Shown here in pieces: positions 16,390-45,942 of a stretch of DNA of 64,000 nucleotides. The translations under genes and the position numbers were made by a program. The notes under the pieces were generated by a model. The model made no database searches and was not told where the DNA came from. It saw only the letters and a program-made list of their open reading frames with translations. Where the stretch lies: the NCBI GenBank assembly GCA_024398845.1, contig JAKSIM010000002.1, forward strand, positions 1 to 64,000. The letters run 5' to 3'. Position 1 is the stretch's first letter, and each line of letters opens with the position of its first letter. Source of the stretch: Fibrobacter sp. GTDB taxonomy: Bacteria > Fibrobacterota > Fibrobacteria > Fibrobacterales > Fibrobacteraceae.

Positions 16390-16404
16390 TGGATAAAACG
16401 TCCA
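16390..16404 (+). promoter_or_regulatory. Xylan-locus operator site 1 (before TIGR02147 regulator)
   Basis: TGGATAAAACGTCCA, an imperfect dyad, ends 56 bases before the regulator ATG. It is one of nine copies in the locus. Confidence 0.6.
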
Positions 16405-16460
16405 TAGGAAATGTAAACGATTCTTAAAAAAGCTACCTTGAAGTAGGTATCTTATTATTG

Positions 16461-17324
16461 ATGGTTACTTTTTCTGACATAGCGGACTACCGCGACTTCC
16501 TGAAAGACTTCTACGACCGGCGCAAGGCCGAGATGCCTTTCTACAGCTATCGCATGATGGGCGATAAGTTGGGGCTGGATTCCAGCTACCTGTATCGTGT
16601 GCTGCAAAAGAAACAGCACCTGCCTGCCCATGCGCTTCCGGCTGCTAAAGAGATCCTGGCCCTAAGCGGGCGTCAGGCAGAATACTTTGATCTTTTGTTC
16701 TCTGCTGCGGTTAGCAAGGACAAGTCAAAGCAAGAAGAATTGATGGCGAAGGCTCTCTCCCTTCGCGACGTGGAACGCCACAGCTTGCAGGCGGCTGAAC
16801 TCAAGCTCCTCGAGAACTGGTGGATTCCTGCCGTTCGCGCCTACCTGGAATTGAATGGTGGTGTGGTGAACGTTAAACAAATTGCCAAAGATATTTGCCC
16901 TCCTATTACCGAGGAACAAGCTGCCGAAGCCATTGAGACACTGAAGGAGGTCGGTTTGGTGAAGAAGCTTGCTTCGGGCAAACTGGCTCTGACGGATGCC
17001 CATCTCACGGTGGGCGGCCCCGAAAAGGCGAAGGCGGTTCGAAGCTTCCAACGTCAGGTTTTGGGCCTTGCAAGCGATGCGCTCGATAATATTCCAGTAA
17101 GCGAACGCAATATCTCGACACTTACGCTTTCTGTTGATCAGTCGTGTTTTGATGATTTGGGTGATATGTTGCGCGAATTTCGCCGTTTGGTGCAAAAACG
17201 TGTGGACGAGGCTAAGACCCCGGACCGCGTTATGCAGCTTTCGATGGCTTTTTACCCGGTAGCCCGCAAAGGTGGCATTCCGGAAAATACTATTATGGGG
17301 GAAGGCGCAGGAGACAAAAAATGA
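16461..17324 (+). CDS. TIGR02147-family transcriptional regulator (left pair)
   Basis: The protein has 287 residues; the ATG at 16461 is preferred over the TTG just before it. The N-terminus DIADYRDFLKDFYDRRK and the helix-turn-helix-like stretch YSYRMMGDKLGLDSSYLYRVL (about 25-45) are typical of TIGR02147, a family expanded in Fibrobacteres. Residues about 125-185 look like a winged helix (VNVKQIAKDICPPITEEQAAEAIETLKEVGLV). The C-terminal part (DRVMQLSMAFYPVAR) is shared with the paralog at 51381-52277. Its TGA overlaps the ATG of the following lipoprotein (ATGATGA), so the two are co-translated. A copy of the locus operator lies 56 bases upstream, suggesting autoregulation. The family is confident; target genes are inferred. 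Confidence 0.8.
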   Translation: MVTFSDIADYRDFLKDFYDRRKAEMPFYSYRMMGDKLGLDSSYLYRVLQKKQHLPAHALPAAKEILALSGRQAEYFDLLFSAAVSKDKSKQEELMAKALSLRDVERHSLQAAELKLLENWWIPAVRAYLELNGGVVNVKQIAKDICPPITEEQAAEAIETLKEVGLVKKLASGKLALTDAHLTVGGPEKAKAVRSFQRQVLGLASDALDNIPVSERNISTLTLSVDQSCFDDLGDMLREFRRLVQKRVDEAKTPDRVMQLSMAFYPVARKGGIPENTIMGEGAGDKK

Positions 17325-18529
17325 TGACCAGGGTGTGGAAATATGGACTAGCGGCATTGGGTGGAGCCTTTGTCGCGTGTAGCGGTGGCGGTAGTGGCGA
17401 CGTCGCTGGATCGTCAATGGAGACTGAGAACTCAATTGCGTATTCGGTGGTTTTAGCCGATGGTTCCCCCGCTGCTCAAATGCGCGTCCGTGTGCGTCCT
17501 GTTGATTTTGTTGCTGCAGGAGAAGGTGTCGACGCTCTTGATAGCTCCCTCTTTATTGATGATACAACCGATAGTAATGGATTTATTTCGATTTCGAGCT
17601 TGATTGAAGGTGATTACCGTATTGAAGTTGGTAATGATTCCCTTAAGGGGACAGACGCTTTTGCCGTAAAGCAAAATGATGGCAAGATTATTTCGGATTC
17701 CCTTTCTATTACGGTGGATGAACCTGGGCGCGTGGTTGGACAGGTTGAATTGCCTGAGGGCCAAAAGTACGCAATGGTTGCCATTGTGGGCTTGGACTAC
17801 TACGCCAAGACGGATTCCCTTGGATTCTTTGAATTTGAAAGCTTGCCTGCAGGTGAGTTCGAAGTGTTGGCTCTTTCGGACTCCTACGCTTCTATGGGTT
17901 CTGTGCCTGCCGAAGTGGAATCGGGTGATTCTGTGGAAGTCTTGATTGAACTCCCTGCCGATACCGTGAAGCATTTTATGCTGGACGATTTTGAAGATGG
18001 CGTTGACAACTGGTTTGTGCGTCACTCCGAATATGGCGAGGGCGAACTTCTCCCGGTAAAGGATAAGGATGACGCTCGCGGTATTGTTGCGTACTTCAAT
18101 TGCAAAAATGATTCAAACCTGAATTGGGCTCTGTTCGGGTATGGCTTTGATGAAAAAGCCGTAGACATGAGTGAACTTGATTCTATTGTGTTCTGGGCTC
18201 GCGGTCTCCCGAAAAATGATTCCGTTGGGGTTTATCTGTCGTTCTCGTTTGACGTGAACGTGGACAGCTCTTCGGGATTCGAATCCGGCAAGGCTTGGGT
18301 GCATATGGATTTGACCGAAGAATGGTCTCGTTATGTGGTTAAGCCGAGTATCCTTATGGATCCGGACAGTAACAAGAATGGCGGAAACATTGGCTGGGAT
18401 GCTGTTAAATCTCACGTGACGAATATTTCCATTTTTGGCGGTATCGGCGGTAAGATTTGGGTCGATGATATTGAGGTCTTTGGCTACAATGAATTTGTTG
18501 GTAAAGAACTGAAAAAGAAAGACGATTGA
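17321..18529 (+). CDS. Lipoprotein with carbohydrate-binding-type domain, partner of TIGR02147 (left pair)
   Basis: The 402-residue protein has a signal peptide with Cys20 in GAFVACSGGGSG as the lipobox. Two carboxypeptidase-regulatory-like beta-sandwich stretches follow (TTDSNGFISISSLIEGDYRI, then FFEFESLPAGEFEVL). From about residue 220 there is a jelly-roll domain beginning MLDDFEDGVDNWF and ending IWVDDIEVFG, the pattern of CBM11/CBM30-like carbohydrate-binding modules. There is no catalytic domain. It starts inside the stop codon of the TIGR02147 gene. The same two-gene arrangement recurs at 50120-52277. A surface or periplasmic sugar sensor feeding the regulator is a reasonable hypothesis but is not shown by sequence alone. 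Confidence 0.7.
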   Translation: MMTRVWKYGLAALGGAFVACSGGGSGDVAGSSMETENSIAYSVVLADGSPAAQMRVRVRPVDFVAAGEGVDALDSSLFIDDTTDSNGFISISSLIEGDYRIEVGNDSLKGTDAFAVKQNDGKIISDSLSITVDEPGRVVGQVELPEGQKYAMVAIVGLDYYAKTDSLGFFEFESLPAGEFEVLALSDSYASMGSVPAEVESGDSVEVLIELPADTVKHFMLDDFEDGVDNWFVRHSEYGEGELLPVKDKDDARGIVAYFNCKNDSNLNWALFGYGFDEKAVDMSELDSIVFWARGLPKNDSVGVYLSFSFDVNVDSSSGFESGKAWVHMDLTEEWSRYVVKPSILMDPDSNKNGGNIGWDAVKSHVTNISIFGGIGGKIWVDDIEVFGYNEFVGKELKKKDD

Positions 18530-18552
18530 AAATTTAAAAGTTCACTAAACTT

Positions 18553-18567
18553 TTGACAATTTATCCA
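18553..18567 (-). promoter_or_regulatory. Xylan-locus operator site 2
   Basis: TGGATAAATTGTCAA on the minus strand, 85 bases before the ATG of the first GH43 gene. Confidence 0.55.
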
Positions 18568-18597: not shown

Positions 18598-18652
18598 TGT
18601 TTGTGGAACATAATTTATAAGCGTTGAGGGTGTGATTTCCAAAGGAGTATAT

Positions 18653-20890
18653 ATGCGAGCATGGAATCGTTTTGTGCAGGGTTGTGCCAGTGCGTGCCTT
18701 GCATTTGGGTTGGGTGCAAGCGCTTTTGCGTATAATCCAATTTCTACTTATCACTACTTGGCGGACCCGGGTGCCGCCGCCGATGATGAATATTTCTACA
18801 TCATCACGGACTCCGATGATCCGGCTCCGGCAAATGCGAGCGGCTATGAGATTAAAGCCTTGTACGGCTTCCGCAGCAAGGATATGCAGAACTGGACCGA
18901 TTTCGGCATTATTTACGATGCCCGTAAGGTCGACGGTGTCGATGCCATTTGGGCATCTGGCATTGCTAAAAACCCAAACGACGGCAGACTCTACATCGTG
19001 TTCCCCGATGGCGGTGGCGGCGGTATTGTACTCATTGGTGCCGATAGCATTGCAGGGCCTTGGACGAACCCGCTGAATGGCGGCAAGAGGCTTATTGGTT
19101 GGGGCAATGCCGGCATTTCGGACTGCGACGGTATCGGTTGGTGCTTTGACCCTGCTATCTTTTTTGACGACGATGGCCAGGGTTACTTTACCTTTGGCGG
19201 TGGTGACAGCGATTCCCGCCCGGCAAGGGACAATGGCAGCGATATCTTTAATATCTACAAGCTTGACAAGGATATGAAGAGCTACAATCCGGGTACCAAG
19301 ACTCACTTGAAGATAGGTGGCCCCCAGGCGATGGAAGCTTCATACATTCACAAGTACAAAAACAAATACTATTTGTCTTATAGTACTGCTGATTTGCGCA
19401 TTGCTTACGGCATGTCGGATAGCCCCATGGGCCCCTATGAATACAAGGGAATCTTTATGGGTAACCCGAATATTGGCGGACAGAACATCAACGCCAACAA
19501 CAATAACCACCACGGCATTGCCGAATTCAAGGGCCACTGGTACGTGGCTTACCATGATCGCCGTATCTCCAATGGTTACGACGGTTTGGAAAAAATTCCT
19601 GCCGAGGATGGGCTGCCGAACCCGAATCCTGCTTTCCACCGCAGCGTAAGCATCGATGAGTTTACTTACAATGCCGATGGCACCATGAAGGAACTGACTT
19701 TTACGAAGGAAGGCCCTGAACAGCTCGAAAACTTCGATCCGTACGATTGGTATCCGGCTCTCACGAGTTCCAAGCAGAAGGGCATCCGCAGCCGTTCTAA
19801 CTGGGCTCCGGGCAAGGTCGCCGAACACATTTTGCTTCCGCTTTCCTCGAAGGAATCCTGGATTCGCGTGAGTGGCGTTGACTTTGGTACGGCCGCTACG
19901 GGCTTCACGGTGGAAGCGGCTAGTGCTGCGGCTGGTAACAAGATTGAAATTCGTACAGGTTCTGCTTCGGGAACTTTGGCTGGTACTTGTGAACTCAAGA
20001 ATACGGGGAGCAAGACTAGCTTTGAACAGAACACTTGCGAAGTTGAAGGACTCAAGGGCATTGTGAACTATCTGTTCCTGGTGTTCAAGGGTTCCCAGGA
20101 TTCGACCATGGCTATCAAGGCCTGGGGCTTTGAAGGAAGTGGCACGACTCCGCCGACTCCGCATTCTGCTTACGAAGGCAAAGTCGTCACACTCCCGGCA
20201 AAGATTGAAGCCGAAAACTACGATGTCCCGGGAACTGGTCGCGGTAGCGATGTCAAGTCTTATAACGATGCCGATAGCGAAAACCAGGGCGATGCGGAAT
20301 TCCGCACCGATGAAGGTGTTGATGTCGTTCTTGGTGGTACTGGCAAGGCTATTGGTTATACAAGCGAAGGCGAATGGCTCCTTTATACCGTGAACGTTCC
20401 GGCCGATGGTGAATACGCTATCAAGGCAAGTGCTTCTACGGGCATGGAATCAACAAGCTTCAAGTTCCAGGTCGATGGCAAGGATGTGGGCTCCGAAATC
20501 ACGGTTCCGCAGACTGGCGAAGACTGGAGCGTTTACAAGGAGTTTGATGGCGGCAAGGCGACCCTCACCGCAGGCGAACACGTCGTTAAGCTTGTCATTA
20601 CCGGCAACAACGTGAACGTAGACTGGTTCTCTTTGGGAGACGTGACGGGTGAAGTGGTTACTCCGGGAGATTCTTCACGTACAGCCTTGAAGGCTGTTGC
20701 TGCTAACCTTAATTCCGGTGCTTTCAGTACGTATCGCGTGTACAACGTGAAGGGCAAACTTGTAGGCATTGTGGATTTGAATGGCAAGAAGGCCGCTAGC
20801 GCTTTAAGTGAGGCTGGTTTTGATAAAGGAATTTATATGTTGCGTTCCGTGAACGGCAATAAAAAGTTCATGGCTAGCGTAGCTAAGTAA
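18653..20890 (+). CDS. Secreted GH43 glycosidase with two CBM6-type modules (copy A)
   Basis: The 745-residue protein starts at the ATG at 18653 with AAAGGAG upstream; an in-frame GTG at 18632 is rejected. The signal peptide ends GASAFA. The five-bladed GH43 domain (about 27-330) shows all three acids: Asp38 in YLADPG, Asp in CFDPAIFFDDDG, and Glu in MEASYIHKYKNKYYLSY. A CBM6-like sandwich follows (about 370-500), then a typical CBM6 (about 512-650, PAKIEAENYD ... GEWLLYTVNV ... VNVDWFSLG) and the basic tail (YNVKGKLVG ... GIYMLRS). The likely activity is alpha-L-arabinofuranosidase or beta-xylosidase on arabinoxylan; the subfamily was not assigned. It is a close paralog of the next gene. Confidence 0.88.
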   Translation: MRAWNRFVQGCASACLAFGLGASAFAYNPISTYHYLADPGAAADDEYFYIITDSDDPAPANASGYEIKALYGFRSKDMQNWTDFGIIYDARKVDGVDAIWASGIAKNPNDGRLYIVFPDGGGGGIVLIGADSIAGPWTNPLNGGKRLIGWGNAGISDCDGIGWCFDPAIFFDDDGQGYFTFGGGDSDSRPARDNGSDIFNIYKLDKDMKSYNPGTKTHLKIGGPQAMEASYIHKYKNKYYLSYSTADLRIAYGMSDSPMGPYEYKGIFMGNPNIGGQNINANNNNHHGIAEFKGHWYVAYHDRRISNGYDGLEKIPAEDGLPNPNPAFHRSVSIDEFTYNADGTMKELTFTKEGPEQLENFDPYDWYPALTSSKQKGIRSRSNWAPGKVAEHILLPLSSKESWIRVSGVDFGTAATGFTVEAASAAAGNKIEIRTGSASGTLAGTCELKNTGSKTSFEQNTCEVEGLKGIVNYLFLVFKGSQDSTMAIKAWGFEGSGTTPPTPHSAYEGKVVTLPAKIEAENYDVPGTGRGSDVKSYNDADSENQGDAEFRTDEGVDVVLGGTGKAIGYTSEGEWLLYTVNVPADGEYAIKASASTGMESTSFKFQVDGKDVGSEITVPQTGEDWSVYKEFDGGKATLTAGEHVVKLVITGNNVNVDWFSLGDVTGEVVTPGDSSRTALKAVAANLNSGAFSTYRVYNVKGKLVGIVDLNGKKAASALSEAGFDKGIYMLRSVNGNKKFMASVAK

Positions 20891-20941
20891 AAGAGCTCCC
20901 TAAACACCACATAATCGAATCGGTACTGAATGGTACCGTAG

Positions 20942-20976
20942 AATCCCCTAGAACGCAAGTTTTAGGGGATTTTTTT
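20942..20976 (+). terminator. Terminator of GH43 copy A
   Basis: AATCCCCTA-GAACGCAAGTT-TTAGGGGATT is followed by a T run. A second small hairpin (GGTAC-TGAAT-GGTACC) lies just before it. Confidence 0.85.
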
Positions 20977-20986
20977 ATGTCGTTCG

Positions 20987-21001
20987 TGGATAAAATGTCC
21001 A
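20987..21001 (+). promoter_or_regulatory. Xylan-locus operator site 3
   Basis: TGGATAAAATGTCCA, 88 bases before the ATG of GH43 copy B. A further GGGTAT-ACAAA-ATACCC hairpin (21058-21074) lies just before the ribosome-binding site. Confidence 0.6.
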
Positions 21002-21089
21002 TAAAACATGCTTTTAAGGGCGTAAAATTGCGTTTTTGGAAGTATAGATTAGAGCTAGGGTATACAAAATACCCCTTTAAGGAGTTGTT

Positions 21090-23336
21090 ATGGAATTGAA
21101 AAGCTATGTCTGTGCGGCTGTATTGACCGCGGGTTTGGGAATGCAGGCTATGGCTGATAACCCGATTTCAACGTACCATTACTTGGCGGACCCTTCTGCC
21201 GCCGCTGATGACAGTACCTTCTACATTTTGACAGACGTAGACGATTACAACAATCAGACTAACTGGAGTTACGACATTATCGGTCTTTACGCCTTCTCGT
21301 CCAACGACATGAAGAACTGGACCGACCATGGCATGATTTTCAAGTCCAATCGCGAATTCGGAAATTACCCGAACAACACGTGGGCTTCGGGCATTGCTGT
21401 CCATAACGGTCGTATTTTTATTGTGTATCCCGATGGCGCGAGCGGTGTGGGCATGATTACCGCTCCGAGTATTGACGGCCCCTATACCGACCCCATCATG
21501 GAAACCCATGGCAAGAATAGAATCGCAGGTGCGGGCAGTTTCCTTGGCGACTGTGATGGTATTGCGCACTGCTTTGATCCGGGCATCCTCTTTGACGACG
21601 ACGGAACGGGCTATGTGATTTTCGGCGGTGGCGAAAGCGGACAGCGCCCGTTTGGCAACAACTTCGATATCATCAAGTTTAGCGAGAACAACGGCAAGGT
21701 GACTTTGGATAGAAATTCCCTGACTAGGGTCCAGTTGCCTAACTCCTTCGAGGCGCCTTACTTGCACAAGAAGGGGAGTACCTATTATTTGAGTTTCAAC
21801 AACCGCAGCCAGGTGATTGACTACGGTATGTCGAATAACATTATGGGCCCGTACAATTATGTGGGCTCCGTTATTCCCGGCATTGGTTCTGTTCCCGATG
21901 CCCATGGCGAAGGCGGAAACAACCACCAGGGCTTCGCTGAATTCCAGGGCAAGTGGTATGCCGTGTACCATGACCGTCGCCTGGTGACTTCGGACAACCA
22001 TCCGGCGGCAACAACGCGAAACGGCACTCGCTCCGAGAACCCGAACTACGAAAACCATAGAAGCGTGAGTATCGATGAACTCACCTGGAATGGCGACAAG
22101 ATGAACACCCTGAAATTCACGAGGGAAGGTCCTGCGCAAATTAGGAATTTCGATCCGTACAAGACGTACAAGGCTACTACGAGTTCCAAGCAGATGAATA
22201 TCCGCAGCCGTACCGACTGGACTAAGGGTGAGCCCGTGAAGCATGTGCTGTTGCCCCTTACGAGCAGAAGTGAATCCTGGATTCGCGTCTCTGGCGTGGA
22301 CTTTGGCAAGGGCGCCGAAAACTTGCGCATCAAGGCGGCGAACGTGGGTGACGGCAACAAGGTCGAAATCCACACGGGTAGCGCCACGGGTCCGTTGGCC
22401 GGTTCTTGCGAAATTGCAAAGACCAGCAATAATATGACGTTTACGGATAATGATTGCGCAATGACGGGGCTTACGGGCGTCGTCGATCAGCTCTTCTTTG
22501 TGTTCAAGGGCAGTAAGGATTCCACCATGGGCCTTTTGGAATGGGAATTTCAAGGCACCAAGCGCGAACCGGAGCCGCAGACTACTTTCGGAAACGATGG
22601 CAAGGCTTGGACTGTTCCCGGAAAGATTGAAGCCGAAAACTTTGATGAGCCGGGTTATGGTGCCGGTAACGATTCCTACGCCGATAACGATGCAAGCAAC
22701 CATTCCTGCACCGACGAAGGCAAGGAAGCAGAATGCACTGATTACCGCGAAGGGACTGGCGTCGATATTTATAAGAAAGCTGACGGAAAAATGGTCGTCG
22801 GTTACATCAATGCCGGTGAATGGCTGGAATACACCATCAACGTAAAAGAGGACGGTGATTATACTTTGTTCGCGGCGGTCGCTTCGGAAGGGGGTTCCAC
22901 CTTTAACTTTGAACTTGACGGTAAAGAATTGACCGGCGATATGGAAGTGCCTGCAGGTGGTAACGGTTTTGACGATTTCTCCAGTGTCAAGGCAAACGTG
23001 GCTTTGACGGCGGGGACGCATATTCTGCGTTTCAACGCTGTGGCGGATTGGTTTGACTTTGACTACGTCAGTTTCGTGAAGGGCAAGGACGCTGTTGAAT
23101 CGAATATCAATGTTACTGAATCGGATTCCGGTACTACTTTTATTGGCGAAAAAATTGCTTTGCAACGTTCCATGGATTCTTTCAAGGTGTTTGATATCTC
23201 TGGAAAAAATGTCGGGTTCGTAAAGTTGAACGGCATGTCAATTGAACAGGCTTTAATCGCTTCGGGTTACAAGAAGGGCGTGTATGTCCTTCGGGGAATG
23301 CAAAATGGAAAGAAATTTATGGTCGCCGTCCGTTAA
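21090..23336 (+). CDS. Secreted GH43 glycosidase with two CBM6-type modules (copy B)
   Basis: The 748-residue protein has AAGGAG seven bases before its ATG. Signal peptide to MQAMA. The GH43 domain contains Asp34 (YLADPS), Asp in CFDPGILFDDDG and Glu in FEAPYLHKKG. The order of domains is the same as in the preceding gene: a CBM6-like sandwich about 355-490, CBM6 about 508-670 with an extra Cys-containing loop (SCTDEGKEAECT), and the basic tail FDISGKNVG ... GVYVLRG. The shared start NPISTYHYLADP and whole-length similarity indicate tandem duplication followed by divergence. It is probably an arabinoxylan side-chain or short-xylan hydrolase. Confidence 0.88.
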   Translation: MELKSYVCAAVLTAGLGMQAMADNPISTYHYLADPSAAADDSTFYILTDVDDYNNQTNWSYDIIGLYAFSSNDMKNWTDHGMIFKSNREFGNYPNNTWASGIAVHNGRIFIVYPDGASGVGMITAPSIDGPYTDPIMETHGKNRIAGAGSFLGDCDGIAHCFDPGILFDDDGTGYVIFGGGESGQRPFGNNFDIIKFSENNGKVTLDRNSLTRVQLPNSFEAPYLHKKGSTYYLSFNNRSQVIDYGMSNNIMGPYNYVGSVIPGIGSVPDAHGEGGNNHQGFAEFQGKWYAVYHDRRLVTSDNHPAATTRNGTRSENPNYENHRSVSIDELTWNGDKMNTLKFTREGPAQIRNFDPYKTYKATTSSKQMNIRSRTDWTKGEPVKHVLLPLTSRSESWIRVSGVDFGKGAENLRIKAANVGDGNKVEIHTGSATGPLAGSCEIAKTSNNMTFTDNDCAMTGLTGVVDQLFFVFKGSKDSTMGLLEWEFQGTKREPEPQTTFGNDGKAWTVPGKIEAENFDEPGYGAGNDSYADNDASNHSCTDEGKEAECTDYREGTGVDIYKKADGKMVVGYINAGEWLEYTINVKEDGDYTLFAAVASEGGSTFNFELDGKELTGDMEVPAGGNGFDDFSSVKANVALTAGTHILRFNAVADWFDFDYVSFVKGKDAVESNINVTESDSGTTFIGEKIALQRSMDSFKVFDISGKNVGFVKLNGMSIEQALIASGYKKGVYVLRGMQNGKKFMVAVR

Positions 23337-23398
23337 GGATTGACCAAAAAGGGTCCCTAAACACCACACATCCAAACCGACGCCATGTCGGCGTCATA

Positions 23399-23437
23399 AA
23401 GTCTCCCGAGACATTTGTCTTGGGAGACTTTCTTATT
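23399..23437 (+). terminator. Terminator of GH43 copy B
   Basis: AAGTCTCCC-loop-GGGAGACTT is followed by a T-rich tract. A smaller hairpin GACGCC-ATGTC-GGCGTC precedes it. Confidence 0.85.
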
Positions 23438-23449
23438 TTATATATAAAA

Positions 23450-23492
23450 TTGTATACAAAGTTTTAACTTAAAATCGTATACAAAATGTTCA
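23450..23492 (+). promoter_or_regulatory. Twin GTATAC sites and a degenerate operator before GH30
   Basis: TTGTATACAA (23450-23459) and TCGTATACAA (23475-23484) are 25 bases apart. The second runs into AAAATGTTCA (to 23492), a poor match to the locus operator. GTATACAAAA also occurs before GH43 copy B. Confidence 0.35.
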
Positions 23493-23592
23493 TGGAATAT
23501 TTTTTTAATTAACGCAAAAATGATGGAGGGAAAGGTATTTTTTGTTGTTAGGGGGATTGCGTTTTGCAGGCTCAACCAAAAAGGGATGTTTT

Positions 23593-25716
23593 ATGATGAA
23601 AAAAATTGCACTTATGACGGCTTGTGGCTCACTTGCGATTTCTGCTGCATTTGCAAGCACCGTGACCGTGAACTTAGACGAAGAACACCAGGTGATTCGC
23701 GGTTTCGGCGGCATGGTGCATAATGAATGGCAGGGCGGCGCTGGTCTTTCCGATGCTGATGCCGAACTTGCCTTTGGTACGGGCGACGGCCACATTGGCC
23801 TCAATACGCTCCGTATTCCGGTGTATGCGAATTCTGGCAGTTTCAACAAGGAAGTGAACGCTGCGAAGGCCGCAAAGAAGTACGCTGGCGATGACTTCCT
23901 CTTTTATGCGACTCCGTGGACTTCCCCGTATGCGGGCGCAAATCAGCACATCAAGTCTTCCGATTACCAGAAGTACGTTGATCACCTGAACAGCTTTACC
24001 AAGTACATGAAGGACCAGGGAATTCCGCTGGATGCCATTTCCATCAGTAACGAACCGGACTGGTGCGGTGAATGGGCCTGCTGGAGCGCCGACGAAATCT
24101 ACAACTTCACCAAGGGCTACGCCGATCAGATGCGCAAGAACGGCACCAAGGTGATTTCTACGGAATCCTTCCGCTACGACAAGAATCTTTACAACAAAGT
24201 ATTGAACGATGCGAGCGCCCTCAAGAACTGGGATATTCTCGGTGCGCATTTCTATGCGAGCGAAGCTAAAACGGGCGATGACTTCTTTGCGTATTCCCTC
24301 GCCGACCAGAAGGGTGTTGAACGCTGGATGACGGAACACTACACCGAAAGCCAGGGAAGCGGCAACTACTGGCGCACCGTGATGCGTACGGGTGACCAGG
24401 CGAACCAAAGCAAGATGGATACGGTGCGCGCCATGGACGTGGCTTACGAAATCCACCGCGCGATGGTCGTGGGTAATTTTAATCAGTACACCTGGTGGTA
24501 CATCCGCCGCTGCTATGGCCTTATCATGGAAAAGGATTTCGGCAACAAGTTGCAAGTCCCGCAGAACGAAATCGGAAAGATTTCGAAGCGCGGCTACGTG
24601 ATGAGCCAGTTTGCACGTTTCGTGCGCCCGGGGGCAATCCGCGTGGGTGCTACCGCAAAGCCCGAAGCGAACCTTTTTGCGAGCGCCTACAAGAGCGCCG
24701 ATGGCGATAGCACGATTGTTGTGCTCGTGAACCGCGATTACAAGAATGCAAAAACCGTGACCATCAATGTGAAGGGGGCGAATATCGAGACCTTCCACGT
24801 GTACACGACGAGTGAAGCCAAAAATGCGAAGTACGACGGTGAAGTTGAGGTGAAAGACGGCAGTGTGACTATCACGACGGATGCCGGAAACACAAGCAAC
24901 AAGGACTGCATTGTGACCCTCGTGGGCGTTGGCCCGCAGATTATTGTACCGCGCGAGCCGTTCGGCGGCAAGAAGGCCGTTCTCCCTGGAAAGATTGAAG
25001 TGGAAGATTTTGATATTCCGGGTTCCGGCAAGGGCAACAATACGTACAAGGACAACGAATCCGAAAACAAGGGCGCTTCCAAGTACCGCGATGGACTTGG
25101 CGTTGACCTCTATGACGAAGGTACTGGTGTAGTGCTTGGCATGACGCAGACTGGCGAATGGCTGGAATATTCTGTGAATGTGACTGCAGATGGCGAATAC
25201 GACGCTGTGGCAAGCGTTTCGAGCGGTACTGAAACATCGAGTTTCAGGATGCTTTTGGATGGCGAGGAAATTGTCCCGACAACGACTGTGCCTAAGACAG
25301 GCGAGGATTGGAGCGTGTATAAGGAACTTTCGCTGGGTAAGGTGAAGTTCACGAAGGGCGAGCACATTATTCGCTTGGAAATCATGAGCGATTACGTGAA
25401 TATTGACTGGATGCAGTTCTGCGCTGGTGATAAATGCGAAGAAAGCGAAACTACAGAAAACGGAAATGTTGCCGATTCTAGCAAGAATGTGCCTGCTGAT
25501 ACGACCATGGCGATTGCTGCAATGAAGTTTAATGCTTCGAATGTGATGGAAATTTATGTTGTTTACGATTTGATGGGGTCCTTTATGGGTCGTGTCGAGG
25601 CTATGAATGGTGCTGAAGCCGTACAAAAAGCTCGTGGTCTTGTGCGCAACGGTGGCGCCTACTTGGTGAAGTCCATGACGGGTAATAAAATGTTCCGTTT
25701 TACAGCTATTAAGTAA
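23593..25716 (+). CDS. Secreted GH30 xylanase (glucuronoxylanase-type) with CBM6
   Basis: The 707-residue protein starts at MMKK (23593) with AAAGGGA upstream; an earlier in-frame start is rejected because it gives no signal peptide at its N-terminus. Signal peptide to AAFA. The GH30 TIM barrel with its side beta-domain covers about 23-455, with acid/base Glu154 in ISISNEPDW and nucleophile Glu248 in WMTEHYTES. The barrel start VIRGFGGMVHNEW and the compact size fit subfamily 8, endo-acting xylanases guided by glucuronate side groups. CBM6 spans about 464-610 and the basic tail about 650-707. It works on the xylan backbone outside the cell or at the cell surface. Confidence 0.88.
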   Translation: MMKKIALMTACGSLAISAAFASTVTVNLDEEHQVIRGFGGMVHNEWQGGAGLSDADAELAFGTGDGHIGLNTLRIPVYANSGSFNKEVNAAKAAKKYAGDDFLFYATPWTSPYAGANQHIKSSDYQKYVDHLNSFTKYMKDQGIPLDAISISNEPDWCGEWACWSADEIYNFTKGYADQMRKNGTKVISTESFRYDKNLYNKVLNDASALKNWDILGAHFYASEAKTGDDFFAYSLADQKGVERWMTEHYTESQGSGNYWRTVMRTGDQANQSKMDTVRAMDVAYEIHRAMVVGNFNQYTWWYIRRCYGLIMEKDFGNKLQVPQNEIGKISKRGYVMSQFARFVRPGAIRVGATAKPEANLFASAYKSADGDSTIVVLVNRDYKNAKTVTINVKGANIETFHVYTTSEAKNAKYDGEVEVKDGSVTITTDAGNTSNKDCIVTLVGVGPQIIVPREPFGGKKAVLPGKIEVEDFDIPGSGKGNNTYKDNESENKGASKYRDGLGVDLYDEGTGVVLGMTQTGEWLEYSVNVTADGEYDAVASVSSGTETSSFRMLLDGEEIVPTTTVPKTGEDWSVYKELSLGKVKFTKGEHIIRLEIMSDYVNIDWMQFCAGDKCEESETTENGNVADSSKNVPADTTMAIAAMKFNASNVMEIYVVYDLMGSFMGRVEAMNGAEAVQKARGLVRNGGAYLVKSMTGNKMFRFTAIK

Positions 25717-25762
25717 ACAAAAATATGCTATAGTAGAGCCTTAATTAATACTCCTATGACTT

Positions 25763-25794
25763 AAAGTCTCCCGTTTTGTCGGGGGACTTTTTTT
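25763..25794 (+). terminator. Terminator of GH30
   Basis: AAGTCTCCC-GTTTTGTC-GGGGGACTT is followed by a T run. Confidence 0.85.
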
Positions 25795-25817
25795 GTAACA
25801 TTTTTTTTGCTTTGGTG

Positions 25818-25832
25818 TGGATGTTTTATCCA
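25818..25832 (-). promoter_or_regulatory. Xylan-locus operator site 4
   Basis: TGGATAAAACATCCA on the minus strand (TGGATGTTTTATCCA on the plus strand), 80 bases before the CE6 ATG. Confidence 0.6.
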
Positions 25833-25912
25833 CAGAATGGGTGTAAAAAAAAGGAGTTTTGCGGTCTTTAAGAATATTTTTAGTCCAGGACTTTTTTAAA
25901 AAAGGGATTGTT

Positions 25913-27589: not shown

Positions 27590-27659
27590 GCTCCTCGTCG
27601 TTAAACAGATTGTGTTCTTTACGGCTGTAGCGACCCTTCTTGGATTTATCTACGGTTAG
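27576..27659 (+). CDS. Possible 27-residue membrane peptide overlapping the CE6 end
   Basis: ATG at 27576 to TAG at 27659 encodes MKTSELLVVKQ followed by a hydrophobic stretch VFFTAVATLLGFIYG. AAGGTGG lies six bases before the ATG, a good ribosome-binding site. The start overlaps the CE6 stop by 14 bases, and the transcript terminator follows at 27685-27712. The peptide could span the membrane once. There is no homology evidence; it may also be chance. Confidence 0.35.
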   Translation: MKTSELLVVKQIVFFTAVATLLGFIYG

Positions 27660-27684
27660 GTTTCTCTTGATCATCGAACAAAAG

Positions 27685-27712
27685 CCTCGGTTGTGTACCG
27701 AGTTTTTTTTTT
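27685..27712 (+). terminator. Terminator of CE6 transcript
   Basis: CTCGG-TTGTGTA-CCGAG is followed by ten T residues. Confidence 0.8.
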
Positions 27713-27732
27713 GTGTCTGTTATTGCAAGCCA

Positions 27733-27747
27733 TTGATAAAACATCCA
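27733..27747 (+). promoter_or_regulatory. Xylan-locus operator site 5
   Basis: TTGATAAAACATCCA, 72 bases before the GH43 copy C ATG. Confidence 0.55.
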
Positions 27748-27819
27748 TAAAACTTTGTTAGAAAAGTGTATAAGTGAGATACTTATAAAATATTTTATAG
27801 GGGAACAAGGAGTTCAAAA

Positions 27820-32463: not shown

Positions 32464-32536
32464 TGGTAAAATGAAAAATGGTCTTCAAAATTGATTCTTA
32501 TGAAGATATTTTTTAAGTGGTGAAAAGGATGGATTT

Positions 32537-39012
<6,476 letters not shown>

Positions 39013-39019
39013 AAATTTA

Positions 39020-39061
39020 AAGGAGCCCTGCGGAGTTTATTTCGTGTGGCTCCATTTTTTT
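39020..39061 (+). terminator. Attenuator-like hairpin between GH2 and GH95
   Basis: GGAGCC ... GGCTCC, with an internal loop of about 20 bases, is followed by ATTTTTTTAGGG. It lies inside the four-gene run, so it may reduce rather than stop downstream transcription. Confidence 0.5.
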
Positions 39062-39072
39062 AGGGTAGGATA

Positions 39073-41970
39073 ATGAATAAGTTGTTTGCTTTTGGTGCTG
39101 CCTTTGTACTTTTAACTGCGGCGGCATTTGCGTCTCCAGAATCATCGCATGTGCTTTGGTACAATGGCGACGCGGGTTCCACGTTTACGGATGCTCTCCC
39201 GATTGGCAACGGCTATATGGGCGGCATGGTCTATGGCGGGACGGACAAGGACTACATTGGCCTTAATGAAGGTACTGTGTGGAATAGTGGCCCGGGCAAC
39301 AACAATAAGACTGATGGCGCAAGCAAACTCAAGTCCATTCGTGATGCCCTTTTCTCCGGGAACTATGCCCAAGCGGAAAATATTACGGGTTCTCTTGCCA
39401 CTTACGATATTGCTGCTTTCCAGCCTGTGGGCGACCTCGTTTTGAACGTGGGTCACAAGGGGGCCAATTATCGTCGTGAATTGGACCTTAATACAGCTAT
39501 TGCAAAAACGACTTATACTACCGACGGCGTGACCTACACTCGCGAGTATTTTGCGAGCTACCCGGATAAGGTAATTGTTGTGCATATTTCGGCTAGCGAA
39601 AAAGGCAAGGTCGGTTTTAGCGCATCGCTCACGACGCCGCACAAGAATAGCAAGGTCAGCAATTCTAACGATAATACGCTTGTGATGGATGGAACGGTGA
39701 ATTCCATCAAGTTCCAAACTCGTGTTTTAGTGAGTTCCGATGGCGGTAAAGTTTCTGCGGGGAATGGCTCCGTGAATGTGTCTGGCGCAAATTCCGCAAC
39801 CATCATTTTGAATATCGGTACGAACTTCAAGTCTTTTGAAGATGTTTCGGGAGATCCGGGGGCACTTGCAACAGCTGTCATTTCAGCCGCTAGTAAAAAG
39901 ACTTACGAACAACTTAAAGAAGCGCATTTGAAGGACTATCAAGAAATTTTCAATCGTGTTCGCTTGAATTTGGGAACTCCGGCAAGTAACGCAGGTGACG
40001 TGACCAATAGCCGCGTAAAGGCTTTCAACAGTACGGATGACCCCTCTTTTGTGGAACTGTACTATCAGTTTGGCCGCTACCTTTTGATTGCCTGCTCTCG
40101 CGAAGGTGGCCAACCGGCGAACTTGCAGGGCATTTGGAATCGCGATACGTCTCCAATGTGGGGTAGTAAGTACACGACGAACATCAACCTCGAAATGAAC
40201 TATTGGATGGTGGAGTCGGCGAACTTGCAGGAATGTGCAAAGCCGCTCTTTGAAAAAATCAAGGGCCTCGTGGTGCAGGGAAGCAAGACCGCAAAATCCA
40301 ATTGGGGTTCTGACAAGGGCTGGGTGGTTCATCACAATACCGACCTCTGGAACCGTACGGGTCCTGTGGATGGTTCCTGGGGCGTGTGGCCTTCGGGCGC
40401 AGGCTGGCTGAGTACGCACCTGTGGGAGCATTACCTCTTTACGCAAGACAAGACTTTTTTGAAGGAGTATTATTATGCTTTGAAGGGCGCCGCCGAATTC
40501 TTCCTCAACACACTTGTTGAAGAACCGAAGAGCGGGAACAAGTATTTGGTGACGGCACCAAGCGATTCTCCCGAAAATACGCATGGCGGTTACAACGTGT
40601 GCTTTGGCCCGACGATGGACAACCAGATTATTCGTGACGTGTTCAACTACACGATAGAAGCGTCCAAGATTCTTGAAACTGACGAGGAACTGCGTGCTCA
40701 GATTGAAACGGCGGTCAAACGCCTCCCGCCCAGCCGTATTGGCAAATATGGCCAGTTGATGGAATGGTTCGAGGATTGGGATGACCCGAAAAGCGACCAC
40801 CGCCACGTTTCTCACCTGTATGGACTTTTCCCGAGTGCCCAGATTTCTGTGGATGAGACAAAGGAATTGGCCGATGCTGCAAAGGAAACTTTGAAGGAAC
40901 GCGGCGACCTTGCGACGGGTTGGTCGCTTGCCTGGAAAATTAACCTCTGGGCTCGTTTGCAAGATGGCGACCACGCCTACAATCTTGTGCGTATGCTCCT
41001 CACTCCGGATCGTACGTACAATAACCTCTTTGATGCGCATCCACCGTTCCAGATTGATGGTAACTTCGGTGCGGTCTCGGGTATCAACGAAATGTTCCTG
41101 CAGAGCCAGGGCGGAAAGATTCGCATTTTGCCTGCGCTTCCGTCCAAGTGGTCGACTGGTAGCGTCGCAGGACTTCGCGCCCGCGGTGGCGTGGTGGTCG
41201 ATTCCCTCGCGTGGAAGGACGGCAAGCTTGTTTACCTGAAGCTCACCAGCGAAAATGGCGGTGCCCTGAATGTGGAATACGCCGGGAAGAAACTCTCCAT
41301 CTCGACCAAGCCGGGCTCCGATTGCGAACTCGATGGCAACTTGAAGCTTTTGAATCAGCCGGTCGAGGCAGTTGCGCTCCCCACCAAGATTAACGCCGAA
41401 GACTATGTGGAAATGTCCGGTGTCGAAATTGAAGATGACGCCGAAGGCAATACCAACATGGGCTGGATTAACGATGGTGACTATGCGACTTACTTTGTGA
41501 ATTCTCCGGCTGCGGCGACATATACCTTGAAGGCTTCCGTTGGTTCCGCTGCAGAATCAAAGAGTGAAATTATCGTCAAGGATGCGTCGGGCAAGGCTCT
41601 TGCGACTCTGACGGTGGATCCTTCCAAGACGACTGGGTGGAATGACTGGTATGAATCCGAGGCCGAGATTTCCCTCCCGAAGGGCGAACAAAAACTCACA
41701 TTTGCATTCAGTGGCGAGGACACCTTCCTTATGAACATTGATTGGATTGAGTTTGTAAATGATGGCCTTACGCATGTGGTTCCGCAGGTGACTTCTGTAA
41801 TCGCTAAAAATGCTTTGTATCGCGTTTTTGACATGAATGGAAAATTCCTTAGGAATGTGAAATTAAATGACCACGAAAGTGCTGAAAAAACGCTAAAACA
41901 GCAAGGTTTTGGTCCTGGTCGTTATGTAGTTATGGATAAAAAGTCCACGAGACTTGTTGTGGTGAAGTGA
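39073..41970 (+). CDS. Secreted GH95 alpha-L-fucosidase / alpha-L-galactosidase with CBM6-like module
   Basis: The 965-residue protein has a signal peptide to AAAFA. The GH95 design is complete: N-terminal beta-domain (WYNGDAGSTFTDALPIGNGYMGGMVYGG), linker, and an alpha/alpha barrel with NINLEMNYWM near residue 370 (the Asn pair that activates water) and FQIDGNFG near 660 (catalytic-site Asp). GH95 members invert alpha-L-fucosides or alpha-L-galactosides. A diverged CBM6 (about 770-900, INAEDYVEM ... MNIDWIEFV) and a long-form basic tail follow. The gap to GH27 is 52 bases with no terminator. Next to GH43 and GH2 genes, L-galactose on complex glucuronoarabinoxylan is a plausible substrate, as is fucosylated xyloglucan. 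Confidence 0.88.
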   Translation: MNKLFAFGAAFVLLTAAAFASPESSHVLWYNGDAGSTFTDALPIGNGYMGGMVYGGTDKDYIGLNEGTVWNSGPGNNNKTDGASKLKSIRDALFSGNYAQAENITGSLATYDIAAFQPVGDLVLNVGHKGANYRRELDLNTAIAKTTYTTDGVTYTREYFASYPDKVIVVHISASEKGKVGFSASLTTPHKNSKVSNSNDNTLVMDGTVNSIKFQTRVLVSSDGGKVSAGNGSVNVSGANSATIILNIGTNFKSFEDVSGDPGALATAVISAASKKTYEQLKEAHLKDYQEIFNRVRLNLGTPASNAGDVTNSRVKAFNSTDDPSFVELYYQFGRYLLIACSREGGQPANLQGIWNRDTSPMWGSKYTTNINLEMNYWMVESANLQECAKPLFEKIKGLVVQGSKTAKSNWGSDKGWVVHHNTDLWNRTGPVDGSWGVWPSGAGWLSTHLWEHYLFTQDKTFLKEYYYALKGAAEFFLNTLVEEPKSGNKYLVTAPSDSPENTHGGYNVCFGPTMDNQIIRDVFNYTIEASKILETDEELRAQIETAVKRLPPSRIGKYGQLMEWFEDWDDPKSDHRHVSHLYGLFPSAQISVDETKELADAAKETLKERGDLATGWSLAWKINLWARLQDGDHAYNLVRMLLTPDRTYNNLFDAHPPFQIDGNFGAVSGINEMFLQSQGGKIRILPALPSKWSTGSVAGLRARGGVVVDSLAWKDGKLVYLKLTSENGGALNVEYAGKKLSISTKPGSDCELDGNLKLLNQPVEAVALPTKINAEDYVEMSGVEIEDDAEGNTNMGWINDGDYATYFVNSPAAATYTLKASVGSAAESKSEIIVKDASGKALATLTVDPSKTTGWNDWYESEAEISLPKGEQKLTFAFSGEDTFLMNIDWIEFVNDGLTHVVPQVTSVIAKNALYRVFDMNGKFLRNVKLNDHESAEKTLKQQGFGPGRYVVMDKKSTRLVVVK

Positions 41971-42022
41971 AAAAACGACCCAAATGAAGGTACTTTTACA
42001 GTACAATCAAGGAAAATTGGGT

Positions 42023-43903
42023 ATGAATAAGTTTGGATTCTCTTTAGCGAGTGTTGCTTTGGCTGCACTTCCCGCGTTCTCTAACCCCGACAGTTTGGTG
42101 CTGACTCCTCCCATGGGCTGGAACAGCTGGAACGTATTCCACGAGAACATCAACGAAAAGCAAATTCAGGAAATCGCGGACGCCATGGTGGAATCCGGCC
42201 TTCGCGATGCTGGCTACATTTTCTTGAACTTGGATGACAACTGGATGGACACCAAGCGCGATGCGAGCGGCGCCCTCCAGAACAACCCGAAGACATTCCC
42301 GAGCGGCATGAAGGCGATTGCCGATTACGTCCATAACAAGGGGCTCAAATTCGGTCTTTACGGCGACCATGGCAAACGCACCTGCCACCACTCCAATTCC
42401 AACTGGCAGAGCGAAAGCGGCTCCTATGGTCACGAAGAAATCGATGCCAAGAAATTGGCCGAATGGGGCGTGGACTACTGGAAATACGACAACTGTGACG
42501 TTGTTCCGGGTTCTGATCAAGAAGAAGATTACACCCGTATGTCGAAGGCTCTGCGCAATTCCGGTCGCGACATCGTCTTCAGCATTTGCATGTGGGAATA
42601 CAAGGACTGGATGCCGAAAATCGCGAACTTGTGGCGTACCACTTTCGATATCGGCCCTGAGTGGAGATCGACTTCCTGGTACCGCGGCGTTTACGAAATT
42701 ATCGATGCCAACGACAAGTATTGGCAAATAGCAAAGCCCGGGCACTGGAACGACCCGGACATGCTTGAAGTGGACAACAACAAGCTCAGTTACGAAGAAC
42801 AGAAGTCCCAGATGACGATGTGGTCCATCATGGCGGCTCCGATCATGATCAGTTCCGATGTCCGCAAGATGTCTGCCCAGGTCAAGGAACTTTACATGAA
42901 CAAGGACATGATTGCCATTAACCAGGATTCCCTCGGCGTTCAGGGCCACAGAATTTCGAACGATAAAGGCAAGCAGGTTTGGACAAAGCCCTTGAAGAAT
43001 GGCGACATTGCGGTTGCTCTCCTTAACGACAACACCTCGACCCAGACCATTAGCGTCAATTTTGCAGATCTTGGCATTACGGGCGAAGTAGAAGTTCGCG
43101 ATGCTTGGCAGAAGAAGGATTTGGGTCCCAAGAGTGGCGTGTCTGCAGAAGTCCCGGCTCACGGCTCCGTGCTCCTCCGCTTGGTGGTGACGCCTGTTCC
43201 CCGCAAGCCGTTCAAGGGCGAAGCGCTCGCGATTCCTGGCAAGATTGAAATGGAAGATTTTGATATTTCGGGCATTGGCGCAGGGAATACTTCCTATAAC
43301 GACATGGATGCCACTAACCAGGGCACGAGCGAATACCGCAAGGAAACCGGCGTTGACATTTACGAAAAGGATGATGGCAGACTCGTAATCGGCTACAACC
43401 AGGTGGGCGACTGGCTCGAATACACCGTGAATGTGGCTGCCGATGGCGAATATACCATGTCCGCTTCTGTTGCTTCCGCAAACGAAACTTCCGGCTTCAA
43501 GCTTTCCATGGACGGCAAGGATATTACCGATTCCGTCAATGTGCCGAAGGGCGAAGGCGACGATAACTACGACGATTACAAGACTGTCGAAGCGAAGGTG
43601 AACCTGACGAAGGGCGAACACATTATGCGCTTCACCGTTCTTGGCGACTGGATGGACATTGACTACATCAATTTTGTGAAGTCGGGGTCGACGGCTGAAG
43701 GAGATTCTTCTACCACGGCAATAGCCATTCGCAAAACTCCGTTGAACTACAATATTGAATTTGCGGTTCCTCATACTTACGGAATTTACAGTATGAACGG
43801 CAAGTTACTTGGCAAGATTTCTGCTTCTAACGCTCGTGAAGTGAACCAAATGGCGCGCCGTGTTGCTCATGATCAGGTGTTCTATGTACGTCGCATAAAA
43901 TAA
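42023..43903 (+). CDS. Secreted GH27 alpha-galactosidase with CBM6
   Basis: The 626-residue protein starts at the ATG at 42023 (AAGGA upstream); an earlier in-frame ATG gives no better signal peptide. The GH27 barrel starts LTPPMGWNSWN and has nucleophile Asp156 in WKYDNCD and acid/base Asp246 in WNDPDML. A C-terminal beta-domain runs to about 395. CBM6 about 405-555 and a long-form tail (YSMNGKLLG ... VFYVRR) follow. It removes alpha-linked D-galactose from side chains. It is the last gene of the GH141-GH2-GH95-GH27 run, and a strong terminator follows. Confidence 0.92.
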   Translation: MNKFGFSLASVALAALPAFSNPDSLVLTPPMGWNSWNVFHENINEKQIQEIADAMVESGLRDAGYIFLNLDDNWMDTKRDASGALQNNPKTFPSGMKAIADYVHNKGLKFGLYGDHGKRTCHHSNSNWQSESGSYGHEEIDAKKLAEWGVDYWKYDNCDVVPGSDQEEDYTRMSKALRNSGRDIVFSICMWEYKDWMPKIANLWRTTFDIGPEWRSTSWYRGVYEIIDANDKYWQIAKPGHWNDPDMLEVDNNKLSYEEQKSQMTMWSIMAAPIMISSDVRKMSAQVKELYMNKDMIAINQDSLGVQGHRISNDKGKQVWTKPLKNGDIAVALLNDNTSTQTISVNFADLGITGEVEVRDAWQKKDLGPKSGVSAEVPAHGSVLLRLVVTPVPRKPFKGEALAIPGKIEMEDFDISGIGAGNTSYNDMDATNQGTSEYRKETGVDIYEKDDGRLVIGYNQVGDWLEYTVNVAADGEYTMSASVASANETSGFKLSMDGKDITDSVNVPKGEGDDNYDDYKTVEAKVNLTKGEHIMRFTVLGDWMDIDYINFVKSGSTAEGDSSTTAIAIRKTPLNYNIEFAVPHTYGIYSMNGKLLGKISASNAREVNQMARRVAHDQVFYVRRIK

Positions 43904-43941
43904 TCAAAAGTTTTATTAACTCCATAACCACACCCATACAT

Positions 43942-43978
43942 AAACGTCTCGAGAACAATTTGTCGAGGCGTTTTTTTT
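43942..43978 (+). terminator. Terminator of the GH141-GH27 run
   Basis: AACGTCTCGA-loop-TCGAGGCGTT is followed by eight T residues. Confidence 0.85.
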
Positions 43979-44078
43979 AATTACTATTGGACGTTGTAAT
44001 TATCAATAGAATGTATTAGAAAAATAAAATCAATAGGAATTGTGTATATGATTCCTGTCATTGGTAGTATTTTTGCAT

Positions 44079-44110
44079 AAAAAAAAGAGCCCTCGCGTTC
44101 GCGAGGACTC
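44079..44110 (-). terminator. Terminator of the CE1 gene
   Basis: On the minus strand GAGTCCTCGCG-AA-CGCGAGGGCTC is followed by a long T run. A second hairpin, CCACC-GTTAA-GGTGG, lies between it and the stop codon. Confidence 0.85.
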
Positions 44111-44173
44111 TACCACCGTTAAGGTGGCGGTGTTGGGGGAGGTTATATCCCTTTTGCCTTTACGGCATAAACC

Positions 44174-45688
44174 TTACGGCAACGTGAACTGCTTCAGGAA
44201 CGGCCAGCCGACGGTACCGTCGCCCTGGTCGTGACCTTTTCCGTTGTGGTTGTTTGTGCTCTTGTTGGTGCAGAGAACGACCTTGACGCCGTCCTTGCAG
44301 TTGGAGTATTCTTCACAACCATTGGAGTTCGTTGTCGGGTTGCCGGTGCAGCCGTTCTTTTCGGCCCAGAACTTGAAATTGCCCTTGGCGCCGAGGAAGT
44401 TCAGACCATCGTTAAAGCCGCTGTCGCCACCATCGTATTTGCAGGTTCCATCTTCTGTTCCGCGGAACATGATAATGGAAATTGGACGTTCAGGGTTGCA
44501 CTTTTCACTATTGACGGTGTTCAAATCCATACCTGCCGGAGCAACAGCTGCATAAACATCGGACATAAAGCAGGCCACGTGGTTGCTCATGCCGCCGCCC
44601 ATGGAGAAGCCTGTTGCATAAATGCGCTTCGGGTCAATACAGGCTATTTCTTGAACCTGCTTGATCATGTCGCGGGAGAACTGGACGTCATCCTTGGCAG
44701 AACAGCACGGACCCACGTTCCAGCCCGGCTTCATAAAGCCGCTCCATCCGTCGCCAGAACCATCCGGGTACAGGGAAATGACTCCTTCTGGGTCAGTTTG
44801 GGATTTGTATTGAGTGCTTCCCATTTGGCCTTCGCCGGAACCCATAATCGGGTGGTAGTCCACTACGAGCGGAACCGGTTTGTCGCCCTTGTAGGCGCTC
44901 GGCACGTGCATAATGTAGGTACGGCCGTTGATAGACATGTTCTTGTCGCCCGGTGTGGCTGTTTTGCCAGAGCAATCCACGACTTCTTCCTGCTTGGAGG
45001 AAGAAGAAACTGCGGTTGTAGAAGATACCGGCGTTACGTTTTGAGAAGACGCGGGAGCCACGCTGGAATTTGGCTCAACGGAATTGGAACTTGTGGGTTC
45101 GTTCGCACCCTGTTCCATGGTGACTTTTACGTTTGTTTCCACTTCTTGGGACATTTTGTAAGCGACGCTCTTGTAGCCTTGCTTTACAAACGAGAAGGAT
45201 GGAAGCGGGTCGCCTTCCTTAAGAAGCAAGCCCTTGCCGCCAACGATGTAGTTGGTATTAGTGTTGTCGATGCTTACGCGAATGAACTTGACGTTTGTGC
45301 CTTGGCCTTTGCTCAGGTCAAAGCTTGCGCTGCCAAAGATATTGTACAAAGTGCGCTGGTAAGTGATTTTACCCAAGGCGTTGATTGCAAAAACCTTTAC
45401 GGTTTGTGCGTTCAGGCCTTCAATGGACAAAATGTTGCCATGCAAAAAGACCTGACTGTTAGAAATTACGCTTCCCTGGAGGCTTTGACCTTCATTGGAA
45501 AGGTTAAATGTACCGTCAGCTGCGCTTTTGGTACTCATGCCCGCGTAGTTGAAAGATGTGATATCCACATCTGAAAGTGGTTGATCAGTAGTAGAGAATA
45601 CCGCCCCCGATATGCTCCATCCAAATGCCATAGAACTGCTCAGCGCCACTCCTCCTGCGATTGCAGCTATTTTTTTTGGAAAAACCAT
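44174..45688 (-). CDS. Secreted CE1-type esterase (acetylxylan/feruloyl esterase-like)
   Basis: The 504-residue protein starts at the ATG at 45688 with AAAGGAG upstream; a longer start is rejected. Signal peptide to SMAFG, then an N-terminal domain (about 24-190) that begins like a carboxypeptidase-regulatory sandwich (ISGAVFSTTDQPLSDVDI) and ends like the metamotif FAINALGKITY seen in Fibrobacter tails. A Ser/Pro/Thr linker (about 197-235) leads to the alpha/beta-hydrolase domain with Ser362 in GFSMGGG, several Cys and a final His in the GHDQGDG segment. This matches LpqC/PHB-depolymerase-like CE1 esterases, which cut acetyl or feruloyl esters from xylan. It alone of the locus enzymes lacks CBM6 and a C-terminal basic tail. 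Confidence 0.82.
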   Translation of the reverse strand: MVFPKKIAAIAGGVALSSSMAFGWSISGAVFSTTDQPLSDVDITSFNYAGMSTKSAADGTFNLSNEGQSLQGSVISNSQVFLHGNILSIEGLNAQTVKVFAINALGKITYQRTLYNIFGSASFDLSKGQGTNVKFIRVSIDNTNTNYIVGGKGLLLKEGDPLPSFSFVKQGYKSVAYKMSQEVETNVKVTMEQGANEPTSSNSVEPNSSVAPASSQNVTPVSSTTAVSSSSKQEEVVDCSGKTATPGDKNMSINGRTYIMHVPSAYKGDKPVPLVVDYHPIMGSGEGQMGSTQYKSQTDPEGVISLYPDGSGDGWSGFMKPGWNVGPCCSAKDDVQFSRDMIKQVQEIACIDPKRIYATGFSMGGGMSNHVACFMSDVYAAVAPAGMDLNTVNSEKCNPERPISIIMFRGTEDGTCKYDGGDSGFNDGLNFLGAKGNFKFWAEKNGCTGNPTTNSNGCEEYSNCKDGVKVVLCTNKSTNNHNGKGHDQGDGTVGWPFLKQFTLP

Positions 45689-45796
45689 TATTGCTCCTTT
45701 TTTTTGATCTAGTTTTTCCAAACATCCTCAACACAACCCCACACTGAAATTTATAAGAGCGTGAGTGTTTAATAATGTAAAATAAAATCCCGCGCT

Positions 45797-45811
45797 TGGA
45801 TAAATTGTCTA
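45797..45811 (+). promoter_or_regulatory. Xylan-locus operator site 8
   Basis: TGGATAAATTGTCTA, 109 bases before the CE1 ATG. Confidence 0.5.
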
Positions 45812-45927
45812 TGCCGTTTTGGTAAAATGATTTTTACCGCCGCCCCTGAAAATGGCGAAAAGTGTGTAAATTTGTGTAATTTTGGCCGAAATAGCGTAGC
45901 TTCGGTACAAAGTTTTGACACCCGTTA

Positions 45928-45942
45928 TGGACAATATGTCCA
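45928..45942 (+). promoter_or_regulatory. Xylan-locus operator site 9
   Basis: TGGACAATATGTCCA is the most symmetric copy; extended by one base on each side it is a perfect palindrome ATGGACA-ATA-TGTCCAT. It ends 90 bases before the GH10 ATG. Confidence 0.65.

Follow-up and report, generated by a model that had tools for sequence, protein, structure and literature searches.

A shared palindrome at a Fibrobacter xylan locus as the probable operator of an autoregulated TIGR02147 activator

Fibrobacter is a major plant-fibre-degrading gut bacterium. In the 64,000-nucleotide stretch of Fibrobacter DNA analyzed here (the window), a series of secreted-hemicellulase units is preceded by similar short palindromes, and so is the gene of a putative regulator, which raises the question of which protein recognizes these sites, and whether it switches the genes on or off. 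The consulted part of the F. succinogenes genome paper treats the transcriptional control of the organism's cellulases as an unanswered question, credits two other response regulators with the corresponding cluster, and does not list a TIGR02147 protein among its candidate regulators (PMC3079729).

The palindrome and the units it precedes

The initial annotation had listed nine sites before nine units, and had summarized them by the consensus T[GT]GATAAAnnGTCCA with positions 6 and 7, among others, invariant. Each of the nine 15-mers is indeed present at its coordinate, but the written consensus and the number of sites had to be revised. The consensus fits only three of the nine exactly (16390, 20987, and 30194), plus an unlisted one at 41933; the site at 25818, as written, breaks the invariance of positions 6 and 7; and the palindrome precedes 12 transcription units, those with sites at 41933, 23478 (weak), and 47982 (weak) having been overlooked. 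Relative to the consensus, the sites at 18553 and 25818 show the other type or orientation of half-site, and the element is correctly described as the inverted repeat TKGAYA-N3-TRTCMA. The putative operators, their −10 boxes, and the genes concerned are as follows:

16390..16404 (+): operator TGGATAAAACGTCCA, TIGR02147 regulator (putative autoregulatory site)
16448..16453 (+): −10 box TATCTT of the regulator promoter, 43 nt after the palindrome; ATG 16461 is 8 nt beyond
16458..17324 (+): TIGR02147/DUF4423 regulator with a predicted N-terminal XRE-like helix-turn-helix (HTH); the frame opens at TTG 16458, likely start ATG 16461
17321..18529 (+): protein with a CarboxypepD_reg domain and an apparent lipobox, its gene overlapping that of the regulator by ATGA
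18553..18567 (+): operator TTGACAATTTATCCA, GH43 A; −10 TAATTT 18611-18616
20987..21001 (+): operator TGGATAAAATGTCCA (exact), GH43 B; −10 TAGATT 21045-21050
23478..23492 (+): weak operator TATACAAAATGTTCA, GH30 XynC-like gene; −10 TATTTT 23536-23541
25818..25832 (+): operator TGGATGTTTTATCCA, CE6; −10 TATTTT 25875-25880
27733..27747 (+): operator TTGATAAAACATCCA, GH43 C; −10 TATTTT 27791-27796
30194..30208 (+): operator TTGATAAACTGTCCA, GH43 D; −10 TATTTT 30252-30257
32449..32463 (+): operator TTGATAAACTGTCAA, GH141-GH2-GH95 run; −10 TATTTT 32507-32512
41933..41947 (+): operator TGGATAAAAAGTCCA, GH27, within the 3′ end of the GH95 gene; −10 TACTTT 41991-41996
45797..45811 (−): operator TAGACAATTTATCCA, feruloyl-esterase-like (CE1) gene; −10 TAAATT 45753-45748
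45928..45942 (+): operator TGGACAATATGTCCA (exact), GH10; −10 TAGTTT 45985-45990
47982..47996 (+): weak variant palindrome TTGAGA-AAA-TCTCAA, GH39-like gene; −10 TATTTT 48040-48045
18632..50038: target genes (four GH43, GH30, CE6, GH141-GH2-GH95, GH27, CE1-like, GH10, and GH39-like), CBM6 and apparent signal peptides being present in most

If one mismatch to TGGAYAN3TRTCCA is allowed, the window has nine sites, where Markov-1 randomised sequence would give 0.3; two sites match it exactly, where 0.025 would be expected. The whole 2.77-Mb genome holds 25 sites at the one-mismatch tolerance, nine of them inside the window, which is 2.3% of the genome; the reversed pattern, used as a control, gave 10. 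Outside the window, several of the palindromes with one mismatch fall within genes, and these were treated as chance matches. When the upstream DNA of 34 genes was scanned, no site with fewer than four mismatches plus a −10 box was found outside the locus. Within it, the composite rule of palindrome plus −10 box adds the weak GH30 and GH39-like sites, so that all twelve units carry a palindrome at the same position.

Distance from the palindrome to the −10 box

The constant spacing between palindrome and −10 box had been overlooked in the initial annotation, and it points to activation. At all 12 window sites (10 strong, 2 weak), the palindrome ends 42-44 nt before a TAnnTT box, mostly TATTTT or TATCTT. 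Four intergenic sites on other contigs have the box at the same distance:

Contig C54: precedes a CE1-like esterase
Contig C58: precedes a secreted protein
Contig C48: precedes a PETase-like hydrolase
Contig C23: minus orientation, intergenic

When the window was combined with 60 orthologous loci, TAnnTT was found 42-44 nt behind 106 of 116 palindromes (exactly 43 nt in 77), while other distances mostly accounted for 0-4 palindromes each. A further set of 165 non-redundant promoters was picked by the TAnnTT box and is thus informative at the other positions only; there, the palindrome extends to YYR-TKGAYA-wwT-TRTCMA-TRR, the gap is 43 nt in 118 of the 165, and a search for a −35 consensus returned an A/T-rich tract and no TTGACA-like conservation. 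The box itself is like the −7 box TAnnTTTG of Bacteroidetes promoters.

If the first T of TAnnTT lies near −12, the palindrome is centred at about −62 to −63. Since the ATG of the regulator follows its −10 box by only 8 nt, the regulator mRNA is probably leaderless, and the palindrome in front of it would then be centred at about −64. The same 8-nt interval (window 16448-16461) occurs in many orthologs, and some clades have a longer leader. A palindrome 42-44 nt before the −10 box, and so centred near −62, has the geometry of a Class I activator site, the type case being E. coli CRP at lac, where the site is centred at −61.5. As in Class I activator-dependent promoters, the position is constant near −62, with starts predicted from sequence, and the −35 box is weak or absent. 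The likeness to CRP at lac thus extends to a dimeric palindrome, its fixed distance, and the state of the −35 box. In contrast to lac, the Fibrobacter promoters use an FCB-type TAnnTT −10 box, an XRE/lambda-type HTH is predicted for the regulator in place of a CRP fold, and activation is a prediction.

The regulator, its orthologs and its lipoprotein partner

The regulator matches TIGR02147 (Fsuc_second) with 190 bits (cut-off 50) over residues 9-270, and DUF4423 with 94.9 bits (cut-off 30), and is, by full-length profile match over the curated cut-off, a member of this family. In the AlphaFold model, the N-terminal domain is predicted with confidence (pLDDT about 90 over residues 10-80) and has helices at 10-24, 30-37, 41-48, 56-65, and 71-84; outside it the prediction is poor (pTM 0.38), and the C-terminal half is of low confidence. 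Foldseek matched this domain to the N-domains of SinR and CapH (prob 0.98-0.99), with HigA also among the matches; the CapH N-domain superposed at 2.2 Å over 68 columns (prob 0.99), with weak E-values of 0.3-0.7. A weak match to lambda CI came from a profile search. The predicted fold is therefore the five-helix HTH of the XRE/lambda type, with weak E-values, and at the sequence level Pfam gave DUF4423 only and no HTH match. While the predicted N-terminal helices match those of SinR, CapH, and lambda CI, the regulator differs from these proteins in its C-terminal region and in its operator half-site, TGGAYA, and no significant full-length match to XRE/lambda-CI-like proteins was found. The residues of the predicted HTH hardly vary across orthologs; the segment YSYRMMGDKLGLDSSYLYRVLQKKQHLP is nearly invariant among them and different in paralogs; such near-invariance is expected if the operator has remained unchanged.

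The palindrome is conserved upstream of the TIGR02147 gene, as in an autoregulated regulon. All 60 named Fibrobacteraceae loci have it, with two mismatches or fewer and in flanks that have otherwise diverged, and it is also present upstream of regulator homologs at 54-63% identity. At locus L271 (G164:C267), from another bacterial family, a palindrome that looks perfect, TTGACATTCTATCAA, lies ~93 bp upstream of the start of a homolog with 50% identity; a −10 box at the set distance behind it was not found. None of the other 21 TIGR02147 paralogs in this genome has a convincing palindrome of the same spacing upstream (6-bp arms, 3-bp spacer; mechanically chosen starts).

Among 80 Fibrobacter genomes, the exact palindrome gave 322 matches, compared with 48 for the reversed pattern, and the composite of palindrome and −10 box gave 448, compared with 12 for its reversed control. 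The ortholog was found in 76 of these 80 genomes. Family genomes with the ortholog (n = 91) have a mean of 5.5 composite sites and those without it (n = 20) a mean of 0.9, a comparison that ignores kinship. Among the genomes lacking the ortholog, G027, G028, g9, and most of g4 have no composite site; G052 and G149, with assemblies 72-78% complete, have 5-6 composite sites yet no detected ortholog. Of the GH10 genes in ortholog-free genomes, four could be read upstream, and no site was found before any of these.

Composite promoters with an ORF near the regulator precede the regulator or homologs of the window hemicellulases in 168 of 171 cases, a count that is not independent because the loci were anchored on the regulator. 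In a genome-wide sample of 58 distinct promoters, about 50, by our count, precede hemicellulase, esterase, or regulator genes (GH10, GH43, GH2, GH5, GH141, GH95, GH127, esterase, and regulator); of the rest, two precede secreted Ig-domain proteins and two precede small ORFs, while four have no clear enzyme behind them. The initial annotation's idea of a hemicellulase regulon with a shared palindromic operator, including its own regulator gene, is thus borne out by genome-wide and comparative data, the motif being neither random nor unconserved. Independent proteomics agrees with co-regulation: in S85, where FSU_2263 to FSU_2294 apparently form the homologous cluster by composition, the hemicellulases FSU_2263, 2264, 2269, 2272, 2274, 2288, 2292, and 2293/2294 were higher on cellulose than on glucose (PMC6851124).

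Some of the genes behind composite promoters have features of their own. The secreted proteins with bacterial Ig/cadherin-like domains (L212:208-2898 and L250:209-2902) gave no enzyme domain. A small ORF of 36-42 aa with a hydrophobic C-terminal end (MEQR[YF]xAQxxTI[ST]KQYGPKVEAILSG... and relatives) lies directly behind the promoter at three loci, and is possibly a membrane protein of the regulon:

L171:1396 (+): small conserved ORF
L227:225 (−, rc coordinates): small conserved ORF
L257:212 (+): small conserved ORF

Before the GH5 cellulase genes of L241, L243, and L245, all 64 bp between the start of the palindrome and the end of the −10 box are almost the same in several otherwise diverged genomes, which sets them apart from other promoters.

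A homolog of the 17321 protein lies directly downstream of the regulator in 59 of 61 loci, with a 4-bp overlap in 40, and evolves much faster than the regulator (median identity 41%). We speculate that this lipoprotein may carry the signal. A second TIGR02147 gene in the window overlaps a CarboxypepD_reg lipoprotein-like gene (50120-52277, minus strand), mirroring the 16458/17321 pair, and a third TIGR02147 and lipoprotein-like pair is seemingly present on C5 (L056). Such pairing may be general for the TIGR02147 family.

Proposed activation, competing readings and known systems

We consider it probable that the palindrome is the operator of the TIGR02147 protein encoded at 16458-17324, and that this protein is an autoregulated activator of a xylan regulon. 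A regulator dimer would bind the palindrome via its N-terminal XRE/lambda-type HTH, at a position whose centre is about −62 to −64 relative to the transcription start, and would bring about Class I-like activation of promoters that have a TAnnTT −10 box and lack a −35 box. The targets at this locus would be its own gene plus the overlapping lipoprotein gene, and 11 further secreted-hemicellulase units; elsewhere in the genome, they would be a few esterase and other units. The input would be the lipoprotein or a xylan-derived signal.

The same regulator might instead bind the palindrome as a repressor and be released by an inducer. XRE/lambda-type HTH proteins are often repressors, SinR, CapH, and HigA are among the fold matches, and autoregulation is equally compatible with repression. 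However, a repressor could work from varied positions that overlap the core promoter, whereas the invariant 42-44 nt spacing and the missing −35 box suit contact with RNA polymerase. Because constant spacing upstream of a −35-less promoter is the signature of such contact, we regard repression as unlikely.

Nor does it seem probable that the sites are bound by some other transcription factor, with the TIGR02147 gene only one among its targets. Other DNA-binding proteins are encoded in the genome, and, with 22 TIGR02147 proteins among them, another member could share the site; but the motif and this particular ortholog are present or absent together. The second TIGR02147 regulator of the window (51381-52277) was rejected as the binder, since it has a minority distribution (29 of 111 family genomes over E 1e-80) that does not track the motif. 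The ECF sigma gene (15708-16250) adjoins the regulator in the window and is near it in only 6 of 53 loci; not being a conserved neighbour, it too was rejected. A related reading, in which the palindrome is no operator and forms part of an alternative sigma-factor promoter served by this ECF protein, is scarcely credible, as 43 nt is too distant for a −35 element and the ECF gene is unconserved at the locus. Spacing and synteny together largely refute it.

Regulators of Bacteroidetes polysaccharide-utilisation loci are hybrid two-component or ECF/anti-sigma systems. As in the arrangement proposed for Fibrobacter, the regulator is encoded next to the glycan-degrading enzymes under its control, and a surface-type partner is present. 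Fibrobacter differs in having one soluble HTH protein, to which a lipoprotein is coupled, and many separate target promoters across the genome. A tentative wider view, which we hold to be possible and no stronger, is that TIGR02147 proteins are lineage-expanded activators, many operon-coupled to fast-evolving envelope lipoproteins that would sense surface glycans, and each pair with its own operators near −62, and that they would be a Fibrobacter-specific stand-in for the Bacteroidetes systems.

Activator regulons built on a shared operator are a familiar kind of system. In the literature searched, no description seems to exist of the regulator family, of its coupling to a lipoprotein, or of the operator. 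TIGR02147 was not found named there, no function was found for the TIGR02147/DUF4423 family, and DUF4423 had one mention, in a Bdellovibrio protein table. For this family member, a target operator and regulon are proposed here; the analysis puts a name to the proposed regulator, specifies its operator exactly, predicts in which direction control runs, and lists the targets. Palindrome, 43 nt, and TAnnTT make up a search pattern for activator promoters in a phylum with little-studied promoters. If true, the proposal would provide the first DNA target for a family of unknown function, and a point of access to fibre breakdown in the guts of herbivores.
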